Shown piece after piece: positions 20,858-59,899 of a stretch of 64,000 nt of DNA (the first letter of the stretch is position 1; the number at the start of each line of letters is the position of its first letter). This DNA comes from Pseudoalteromonas sp. R3 (GTDB taxonomy: Bacteria > Pseudomonadota > Gammaproteobacteria > Enterobacterales > Alteromonadaceae). Position numbers and translations under genes: made by a program. Location of the stretch: the NCBI RefSeq assembly GCF_004014715.1, contig NZ_CP034835.1, forward strand, positions 248,001-312,000, written 5' to 3'. The notes under the pieces were generated by a model. That model did not search any database. It was not told the origin of the DNA and was given only the letters and a program-made list of their open reading frames with translations.

Positions 20858-20890
20858 GCGCGATTCAGTACACTTTTTCACAGTTCGTTA

Positions 20891-20975
20891 CTTGTCGGAG
20901 TGCCCATCTGGGCTGAGATCGCAGTATTGCGGGATCCGTGGACCTGATCAGGTTAATGCCTGCGTAGGGAACAAG
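20891..20975 (+). promoter_or_regulatory. TPP riboswitch (THI element)
   Basis: The closing helix pairs CTTGT with ACAAG. Inside are the conserved GGCTGAGAT segment (pyrimidine-sensing arm) and ACCTGATCAGGTTAATGCC followed by GCGTAGGGAA, which match the thi-box aptamer consensus. About 175 nt of leader separates the aptamer from the thiC start codon and would hold the expression platform, including the thiC ribosome-binding site GAGG at 21142. Thiamine pyrophosphate binding should reduce expression of the whole thi operon. Confidence 0.96.
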
Positions 20976-21052
20976 CTACCTAAGTTGGTATATCGTAAGA
21001 TATCTAGGTTGCCAGCCATGTTGTGCCTGTGCCAACATGATCCACTGAATGA

Positions 21053-30337: not shown

Positions 30338-30398
30338 GCGGCACTAACTCAGCTGCTAAAACGTTAGACGCGACCCGTCGCGCATCAGCGTTTAAAAC
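30338..30398 (+). repeat. tRNA-Gly 5'-end/hairpin element 1
   Basis: 61 nt. The first 18 nt (GCGGCACTAACTCAGCTG) copy tRNA-Gly positions 1-18 with one change. It then becomes a two-stem hairpin at 30359-30393: outer AAACGTT/AGCGTTT, inner CGCGA/TCGCG with loop CCCG. No anticodon or T arm. Confidence 0.85.
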
Positions 30399-30414
30399 AT
30401 GAGTAATCAGGAAT

Positions 30415-30490
30415 GCGGCACTAGCTCAGCTGGTAGAGCGCGACCTTGCCAAGGTCGAGGTCACGAGTTCGAACCTCGTGTGCCGCTCCA
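30415..30490 (+). tRNA. tRNA-Gly (GCC), copy 1
   Basis: 76 nt including encoded CCA. Acceptor GCGGCAC/GTGCCGC, anticodon stem CGACC/GGTCG with loop TTGCCAA (anticodon GCC), T arm ACGAG-TTCGAAC-CTCGT. Confidence 0.98.
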
Positions 30491-30529
30491 ACACTTCTTC
30501 AGGTGTATAAACTAGATACTGTCTATGAA

Positions 30530-30590
30530 GCGGCACTAGCTCAGCTGCTAAAACGTCAGACGCGACCTGTCGCGCACCAGCGTTTAAAAC
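30530..30590 (+). repeat. tRNA-Gly 5'-end/hairpin element 2
   Basis: 61 nt; first 18 nt identical to the tRNA 5' end. The hairpin loop is CCTG instead of CCCG, and there is one T to C change at the base of the outer stem. Confidence 0.85.
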
Positions 30591-30609
30591 AATCGAGCAA
30601 TTATGGAAT

Positions 30610-30685
30610 GCGGCACTAGCTCAGCTGGTAGAGCGCGACCTTGCCAAGGTCGAGGTCACGAGTTCGAACCTCGTGTGCCGCTCCA
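30610..30685 (+). tRNA. tRNA-Gly (GCC), copy 2
   Basis: Identical in sequence to copy 1, with encoded CCA. Confidence 0.98.
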
Positions 30686-30724
30686 ACACTTTTTCAGGTG
30701 TATAAACTAGATGTTTTCTATGAA

Positions 30725-30785
30725 GCGGCACTAGCTCAGCTGCTAAAACGTTAGACGCGACCCGTCGCGCACCAGCGTTTAAAAC
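30725..30785 (+). repeat. tRNA-Gly 5'-end/hairpin element 3
   Basis: 61 nt; first 18 nt identical to the tRNA 5' end, with the same two-stem hairpin as element 1 (CACC in place of CATC in the internal loop). Confidence 0.85.
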
Positions 30786-30804
30786 AATCGAGCAATTATG
30801 GAAT

Positions 30805-30880
30805 GCGGCACTAGCTCAGCTGGTAGAGCGCGACCTTGCCAAGGTCGAGGTCACGAGTTCGAACCTCGTGTGCCGCTCCA
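30805..30880 (+). tRNA. tRNA-Gly (GCC), copy 3
   Basis: Identical in sequence to copy 1, with encoded CCA. Confidence 0.98.
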
Positions 30881-30919
30881 ACACTTCTTCAGGTGTATAA
30901 ACTAGATATTTTCTATGAT

Positions 30920-30980
30920 GCAGCACTAGCTCAGCTGCTAAAACGTTAGATGCGACCCGTCGCGCATCAGCGTTTAAAAC
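30920..30980 (+). repeat. tRNA-Gly 5'-end/hairpin element 4
   Basis: 61 nt; the 5' part is GCAGCACTAGCTCAGCTG (one change). In the inner stem a C to T change turns a C-G pair into U-G, so pairing is kept. Confidence 0.85.
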
Positions 30981-30996
30981 GTGAGTAATCAGGAAT

Positions 30997-46170: not shown

Positions 46171-46325
46171 GAAATAAATCCTTTGATATGCGGAGGTGTT
46201 AGAATACTTGGAACCAGAATAGGGCACTAAGGTTTTTGGTTCTAAGGTAAACTAGCTGAGAATAATAAAAGTCATCAGGTTTGATGACGAGAATTGATAC
46301 ATAAACGTACTAAAGAAGGTAGAAA

Positions 46326-46402
46326 TGGTGGCCCCACCTGGACTTGAACCAGGGACCTACCGATTATGAGTCGGGTGCTCTAACCAACTGAGCTATAGGG
46401 CC
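46326..46402 (-). tRNA. tRNA-Ile (CAU; lysidine-modified, ileX-like)
   Basis: 77 nt with encoded CCA. Acceptor GGCCCTA/TGGGGCC, anticodon loop CTCATAA (anticodon CAT). Overall sequence is closest to E. coli ileX rather than to Met tRNAs, so the C34 is expected to be changed to lysidine by TilS to read AUA. Transcribed leftward, downstream of two 5'-end elements. Confidence 0.92.
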
Positions 46403-46472
46403 ATTTCTAAATTGTAGTGCTCAATAAATTCATCCATGAAGCGAGGTCCTGTCGGCGTCCTGCCTCCACCTC

Positions 46473-46527
46473 AACAAGCTGCGAAGCGATGCTTCGGTCT
46501 TGTTTCGCCCAACTGAGCTATAGGGCC
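46473..46527 (-). repeat. tRNA-Ile 5'-end/hairpin element 1
   Basis: Begins with GGCCCTATAGCTCAGTTGG, identical to tRNA-Ile positions 1-19. It then becomes a two-stem hairpin at 46473-46504: outer AACAAG/CTTGTT, inner CGAAGC/GCTTCG with a 3-nt loop. It is exactly 125 bp upstream of the tRNA 5' end. Confidence 0.88.
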
Positions 46528-46597
46528 ATTTTCAAATTGTAGTGCTCAATAAATTCATCCATGAAGCGAGGTCCTGTCGGCGTCCTGCCTCCACCTC

Positions 46598-46652
46598 AAC
46601 AAGCTGCGAAGCGTTGCTTCGGTCTTGTTTCGCCCAACTGAGCTAAAGGGCC
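46598..46652 (-). repeat. tRNA-Ile 5'-end/hairpin element 2
   Basis: Same design, 125 bp further upstream. The 5' part is GGCCCTTTAGCTCAGTTGG (one change) and the hairpin loop differs by one base (AAC for ATC) while both stems are unchanged. The whole 125-bp unit, including the linker, is repeated almost perfectly. Confidence 0.88.
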
Positions 46653-46717: not shown

Positions 46718-46746
46718 AGTATAAAAATTTTTAACAGGCTTGTCAC
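46718..46746 (-). promoter_or_regulatory. promoter of the tRNA-Ile locus
   Basis: On the minus strand: GTGACA, 17 bp, TATACT, 66 bp before element 2. Transcription would run through both 5'-end elements into tRNA-Ile. Confidence 0.78.
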
Positions 46747-59827: not shown

Positions 59828-59867
59828 TCTGGCATTTGCTAGGTTCGCTGCCTGAGCAATCAGGCAA

Positions 59868-59899
59868 GGGCTGGTGATTATTTAATCACCGGCCCTTTT
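59868..59899 (+). terminator. attenuating terminator between rplL and rpoB
   Basis: GGGCTGGTGATTA and TAATCACCGGCCC pair along 13 positions (one G-U) and are followed by TTTT. It corresponds to the partial terminator that in related bacteria lowers rpoBC transcription relative to rplJL. The 190 bp between it and rpoB hold no gene. Confidence 0.88.

Follow-up and report, generated by a model that had tools for sequence, protein, structure and literature searches.

Tandem hairpin units that copy the 5' end of tRNA-Ile(CAU) in Pseudoalteromonas sp. R3 look like a mirror-image form of tRNA-linked repeats

tRNA-linked repeats (TLRs) have been known since 1978. For Escherichia coli, PMC8144298 describes 22 TLRs at ten loci, with one to five copies per locus, each carrying a repeat of the final 18-19 bp of the preceding gene. 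The same paper reports that RrB binds CsrA in vitro and that rrB contains GGA motifs, that a CsrA-type predictor gives the 19 TLRs located in tRNA operons scores of less than 0.01, and that deleting or overexpressing rrA, rrB and rrF has modest effects only. It states that no TLR function was known before the CsrA and Hfq data given there for rrA, rrB and rrF (PMC8144298); a weak, growth-rate-coupled CsrA sponge has been suggested for the rrn TLRs. At tyrV of strain K-12 we find exact 19-nt tails at a spacing of 178 bp, broken in the T-loop, and at rrnB a copy of the 5S tail after the operon. Gene fragments are also left at tRNA genes by genomic islands, for which PMC4383910 describes the Islander set, restricted to candidates of 2-200 kb carrying an integrase, 3760 of 3919 of which left a 3' fragment.

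The locus analyzed here lies entirely on the minus strand of the genome of Pseudoalteromonas sp. R3 (5.82 Mb, two contigs), within a window of 64,000 nucleotides, by which we mean the whole stretch of DNA that was analyzed. Its features are as follows.

46718..46746, minus strand: promoter GTGACA-17-TATACT, 10 of 12 matches, followed by a GC-rich stretch and conserved in relatives
46528..46652, minus strand: unit 1, 125 bp, made up of head, hairpins HP1, HP2 and HP3, and a leader borne by the unit
46652-46634, minus strand: head of unit 1, equal to tRNA nt 1-19 with a single mismatch at position 7
46629-46598, 46589-46579 and 46565-46554, minus strand: HP1, HP2 (GGA hairpin) and HP3 (TTCATGGATGAA) of unit 1
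46403..46527, minus strand: unit 2, 125 bp, made up of head, HP1, HP2 and HP3, then the tRNA leader
46527-46509, minus strand: head of unit 2, tRNA nt 1-19 with no mismatch
46504-46473, 46464-46454 and 46440-46429, minus strand: HP1, HP2 and HP3 of unit 2
46326..46402, minus strand: tRNA gene, anticodon CAT, interpreted as tRNA-Ile(CAU) (ARAGORN; Rfam RF00005, 70.9 bits)
46271..46288, minus strand: terminator-like hairpin 3' of tRNA-Ile

ARAGORN labels the tRNA at 46326-46402 as Met(CAT); by resemblance we take it to be Ile(CAU). Directly upstream stand, as a preliminary description had claimed, two tandem 125-bp repeats that begin with the 5' 19 nt of the tRNA (18 of 19 identical in unit 1, 19 of 19 in unit 2) and contain both stems of the proposed two-stem hairpin, AACAAG/CTTGTT and CGAAGC/GCTTCG. 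Within each unit the head runs to G18-G19 in the D-loop and is followed by GCGA, the two-stem HP1, the GGCAGGACGCC hairpin HP2, the TTCATGGATGAA hairpin HP3 and a short leader. Of the 125 positions, 4 are not the same in the two units (7, 39, 120 and 121), a separate repeat search giving a direct-repeat identity of 98%; differences had been described in the hairpin loop and at one acceptor position (head position 7), which is borne out, and the description was incomplete in that positions 120-121 differ too. A chance repeat is ruled out by this identity, by 25 directional copies of the core in the genome and by pairing above that of partner shuffles. Membership of a known Rfam RNA was rejected, as only tRNA reached the gathering score across the unit stretch in Rfam 15, with no other family. 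Elsewhere in the window, Rfam matches to P26 sRNA (59835-59895) and to a TPP riboswitch (20886-20987) were noted.

The promoter named in that description is present at 46746-46718. The scanned region contained two promoter-like sites against 1.2 in shuffles, the second minus-strand site lying downstream of the tRNA, with no other in the scanned stretch. Where units are present, the promoter precedes the first head by 42-65 nt in 10 of 12 tRNA-Ile stretches (a single genome supplied two of these 12), and in all 13 stretches without units it precedes the tRNA itself by 42-80 nt; the first head thus occupies the original tRNA start. That the units would be transcribed with tRNA-Ile as its leader, as had been proposed, is well supported by inference from the conserved position of the promoter and from the location of the other site beyond the tRNA.

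A comparison of copy number across relatives, which had been suggested as a check, gave a range of 0 to 12 units behind the conserved promoter. The orthologous locus of close species contains one, two or three units, and that of one relative (G056) contains 12, namely one diverged unit, ten of a second, 142-bp class and one of 125 bp. After 6 of 30 fetched candidates had been left out as not tRNA-Ile by match, units were present at 11 of 24 tRNA-Ile loci and absent from 13. The preliminary description had held that absence of the units from close relatives with normal tRNA-Ile levels would count against its proposal; of this, the absence is found at these 13 loci. The units are thus dispensable, and it is unlikely that tRNA-Ile generally requires them. 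Both the variable number and the 13 loci without units are in line with neutral, functionless debris, in which a dispersed hairpin repeat entered the D-loop of a tandem tRNA duplicate and the 3' part of that duplicate was lost, the number of units then drifting by unequal crossing-over while gene conversion kept the heads alike. We regard this as rather unlikely in view of the heads, stems and loops described below.

Heads were compared in 116 of 123 units, the other 7 being excluded because positions 1-7 held over 3 mismatches, which in six cases came from a shifted register. In this set, mismatches to the downstream tRNA number 17 at position 1, 9 at position 2 and 1, 1, 0, 1 and 1 at positions 3-7, under a search that fixed positions 8-19 and allowed at most 3 mismatches at positions 1-7. 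The leaders mismatch in 8, 11, 17 and 17 of 116 cases at positions -1 to -4, rising to 70-80 at -14 to -22, in an ungapped comparison in which indels inflate the mismatches and related units are counted as if separate. Within the limits of that search, the 4 of 580 mismatches at head positions 3-7, against 8-17 of 116 per position just upstream, argue against debris. The shared block spans about -5 to +19, and units measure about 75-181 bp from one head to the next head or tRNA. In the Lys array of P. luteoviolacea (L218), where position 1 of the tRNA is G, the six tandem heads listed have T, C, A, C, A and A there, as if identity at this position were selected against.

Break points, read by eye, mostly follow G18-G19 in unrelated tRNAs and genera, a recurrence that also speaks against debris. 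Other breaks fall after the start of the anticodon stem (L294), in the anticodon arm of a tRNA-Leu (L296), after the anticodon arm (L357) and in the T-loop (L306). The non-standard junctions at L294, L296 and L357 and the nested junctions at L343 and L340 follow GG, L306 being the exception. At L306 the T-loop-broken head and a 3'-like remnant after the element fit the debris explanation, and the insert has GACAAATCCGCC..GAGCGGATTTGAAC in common with E. coli rrB. At L343 and L340 one element is nested in the HP2 loop of another; a target duplication is not visible.

Single units do not fold with unusual stability (z -0.7 and -1.2), and the support for their structure is comparative. In the outer stem of HP1, 301 of 348 cells from 58 distinct hairpins are paired, against a mean of 59.9% and a maximum of 66.1% in 1000 partner shuffles, a comparison that is not a probability because the hairpins are related and were counted as separate. 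In an alignment of 24 rows (A3), double-changed cells numbered 52, where shuffles gave 15.4 (0 of 500) and slid structures 9-23. Across these alignments the hairpin stems are shown to covary, which again is not what debris would predict. The same applies to the enrichment of GGA in hairpin loops, found in 21 of 33 units recovered by pattern (shuffle mean 8.6, maximum 16, 20 sets) and in 71 of 91 recovered by a model whose own GGA biases this count (shuffle mean 22.6, maximum 30). Of 116 units, related copies being counted separately, 74 have a TTCA..GAA motif, and in 71 of these the HP3 loop contains GGA. Several Arg and Phe units of other genera have an HP2 without GGA, and in G056 the GGA of HP3 is lost from the seven most upstream of the 12 units. 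At the present locus, GGA lies in the loop of a stem-loop, as for CsrA binding, at both HP2 and HP3, and the genome encodes CsrA.

The tRNA-Ile locus is one member of a large family. A strict pattern of head plus CGAAGC was found in 27 of 108 Pseudoalteromonas genomes and in 2 of 394 genomes of the order, both of them Pseudoalteromonas, a genus with only four genomes in that sample. Over 84,980 species, one genome each, it gave 51 stretches, of which 44 have the cognate tRNA downstream, 5 have no tRNA before the end of the stretch and 2 fail at 6 mismatches. Under stricter filters, a covariance model (R1) matched 48 of 369 sampled gammaproteobacterial genomes, in 42 of 272 genera; the follow-up yielded 119 matches at 89 loci from 44 of 47 genomes other than our own, 113 of them distinct. 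Among these 113, 80 stand at a cognate tRNA head (first 15 nt, at most 2 mismatches) and cover 20 anticodons, with both the head share and the GGA share inflated since R1 was built with head and GGA included. A further 24 have no tRNA in the stretch (by eye, 14 of them have a tRNA front and 10 look dispersed), and 9 have a tRNA whose front does not match the head. The CGAAGC inner stem was rejected as a family-defining feature, other genera having other inner stems. In a metagenome-assembled genome titled Streptococcaceae (L209, L240), Asn, Lys, Phe and Val heads are followed by CTCGAAGCACTGCTTCGAG and a conserved tail, so that either this Firmicute-named genome contains the same design or the contig is misbinned.

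Within the R3 genome, a search of 40 stretches around tRNA genes and element copies found the same design in five tRNA arrays, with 15 heads outside tRNAs at no more than 2 mismatches over 17 nt and with two longer Val-like pseudogenes excluded. Heads number four at tRNA-Gly-GCC in the window, two at Ile, four at Lys, three at Leu and two at a second Gly (plus one more diverged, by eye). The array in the window is the following.

30338..30996, plus strand: tRNA-Gly array, with four 18-nt heads at 30338, 30530, 30725 and 30920

Each of these heads is followed by a two-stem hairpin (outer stem AAACG/CGTTT, inner stem CGCGAC/GTCGCG, with one change in the fourth) and then by intact tRNA-Gly. In the Leu (L049), second Gly (L063) and window Gly arrays, the hairpins are partly an inverted copy of the tRNA's own next bases, for example CCAGATGTCTAGAAATAGACGCTGG, an appearance suggestive of template switching. 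In the Val-TAC and Arg-ACG arrays, 3' tails take the place of heads (by eye), which is the E. coli geometry. The long Val-like pseudogenes have an odd anticodon arm (L059, 1650 and 1769; C2, about 2389649-2390088) and score 44.9 bits (2389768-2389850) and 29.4 bits (2390006-2390088) against RF00005.

The hairpin core also occurs away from tRNA genes. Its sequence, CGAAGCNNNGCTTCGCAG, is found 25 times across the genome and never in the backward reading; with as many as 2 mismatches allowed, the window contains 3 copies, shuffles averaging 0.14. By eye, six of the genomic copies are at tRNA heads (2 Ile, 4 Lys), three are near tuf and five are joined in antisense to the 3' end of 5S rRNA (CTACTTTCACATGG); the remaining copies are elsewhere, five of them behind one ORF resembling a histidine kinase. 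The 5S-adjacent copies being antisense to the rRNA, their sense RNA lacks these GGA loops, which, together with the GGA-free HP2 and HP3 described above, speaks against CsrA binding. At L042 the element is flanked on both sides by a copy of the 5S tail with its terminator. A second model built without the head (R2) found 22, 13, 42, 2, 8 and 3 copies in six genomes, lower bounds for five of the six, as only 150 candidates were scored in each of these. In G579, the genome with 42 copies, no tRNA was present in 17 of the 20 stretches read, which cover part of those copies. The notion of an always tRNA-linked element was rejected on these grounds, and the dispersal is a further point on the side of debris. 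Near-identical dispersed copies of G579 (L400-L405 and L407), flanked by ACAGGATTAAGCAG or close to it and accompanied by an inverted second element, resemble a miniature transposon.

An empty/filled pair of loci bears on how a unit reaches a tRNA gene. The leader before the head of filled L160 matches the leader of empty L159 at 58 of 60 nt, and the L160 leader directly before the tRNA has no match to it; the head has thus kept the old leader, and in the intact tRNA gene both the leader and the copy of nt 1-19 are new. Read in this way, the pair shows a unit joined to the gene after tRNA G19. This leader swap, the shared block from about -5 to +19, the GCTC/GAGC D-stem dyad rebuilt at the junctions of Arg units (by eye) and the antisense copies of G579 whose junctions with tRNA 3' ends include a tail copy of about 15 nt (L397, L406) would all suit site-specific insertion into the D-loop through a trans-acting recombinase, with the unit's own copy of nt 1-19 restoring the gene as an island does. 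We consider such a micro-island distinctly unlikely: units of about 75-181 bp are too short for a recombinase gene, the sole recombinase family looked for, Y1_Tnp (PF01797), gave 0 matches in this genome (control positive in 5 of 14), and other break points occur at L294, L296, L306 and L357. The same lack of a Y1_Tnp gene led us to reject REP elements with RAYT. That the heads tune tRNA maturation, an extra 5' acceptor strand competing for the tRNA 3' strand or slowing RNase P, appears very unlikely, since selection would be expected to remove anything that competes with an essential tRNA and the units are dispensable, even though Val heads follow their tRNA between species (ACGACC and ACGACT lineages, one exception) and the change of position 1 in 17 of 116 heads would weaken mispairing.

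We judge it probable, with moderate confidence, that the units are 5'-type tRNA-linked repeats that are transcribed with the tRNA, released by RNase P and constitute a candidate CsrA-binding leader. Their identity as a 5'-type tRNA-linked repeat is well supported. A hairpin element of a dispersed gammaproteobacterial family is joined to a copy of the tRNA front after GG, usually G18-G19 in the D-loop, through either recombination or site-specific insertion, and the intact tRNA gene with its new leader stands 3' of the joined element. Tandem copies probably expand and contract by recombination between heads. RNase P releases the leader when the 5' end of a tRNA is made. The units transcribed with the tRNA would be freed at this step, and their GGA-loop hairpins may bind CsrA, less surely making the leader a weak, growth-rate-coupled sponge as proposed for the E. 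coli rrn TLRs. CsrA titration by the predicted GGA hairpins is a plausible function and the one we favor, although it is unproven and its chances fall somewhat short of even.

A broader and doubtful generalization is that widespread non-coding elements of about 0.1 kb attach to stable RNA genes at their ends, behind a GG located in a hairpin loop, and restore the gene, so that transcription of tRNAs would yield a predicted multi-hairpin CsrA-binding leader in many Gammaproteobacteria, the 5'-type and the 3'-type (E. coli TLR) being two orientations of one system. The existence, at many tRNAs and in many genera, of a mirror-image TLR form whose hairpins covary and have GGA loops bears on the origin of TLRs. 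For E. coli, the 18-bp copy has been proposed to serve as a site for RNase E; that idea is inapplicable to a 5' end, which points to a cause at the DNA level. If the candidate CsrA binding is true, CsrA control and tRNA synthesis may share one transcript. The literature searched, outside which Rudd 1999 and Egan and Landy 1978 (both cited in PMC8144298) lie, contained no description of a 5' form.

Compared with the E. coli TLRs (rttR of tyrT/tyrV, rrA, rrB and rrF), the units are likewise short, tandem and hairpin-forming, belong to tRNA or rRNA operons and duplicate 18-19 bp from the end of a gene. They lie between promoter and tRNA, in two tandem copies here and one to three or 12 in relatives, the upper number exceeding the one to five per locus of E. 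coli. However, E. coli TLRs follow the gene and copy its 3' end, with a T-loop break at tyrV, whereas the present units precede the gene, copy the 5' end of the downstream gene and mostly break in the D-loop. Because the main TLR feature, a copy of the 3' end of the upstream gene, is thus replaced, the units are a variant rather than a member of the TLRs. With genomic islands at tRNA genes they share a gene fragment, an insert and a restored intact gene, the last seen in the L159/L160 pair; islands of more than 2 kb carry an integrase gene, whereas the 125-bp units here, like the family at about 0.1 kb, are non-coding and leave a 5' fragment. Repeated GGA hairpin loops are common to CsrA-sequestering RNAs of the CsrB/RsmY type, a likeness drawn from sequence, but the units sit in a predicted tRNA leader with no promoter of their own seen. 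REP/RAYT palindromes are, like this family, dispersed and imperfect, and what sets the family apart from them is its link to the ends of tRNA and rRNA genes.
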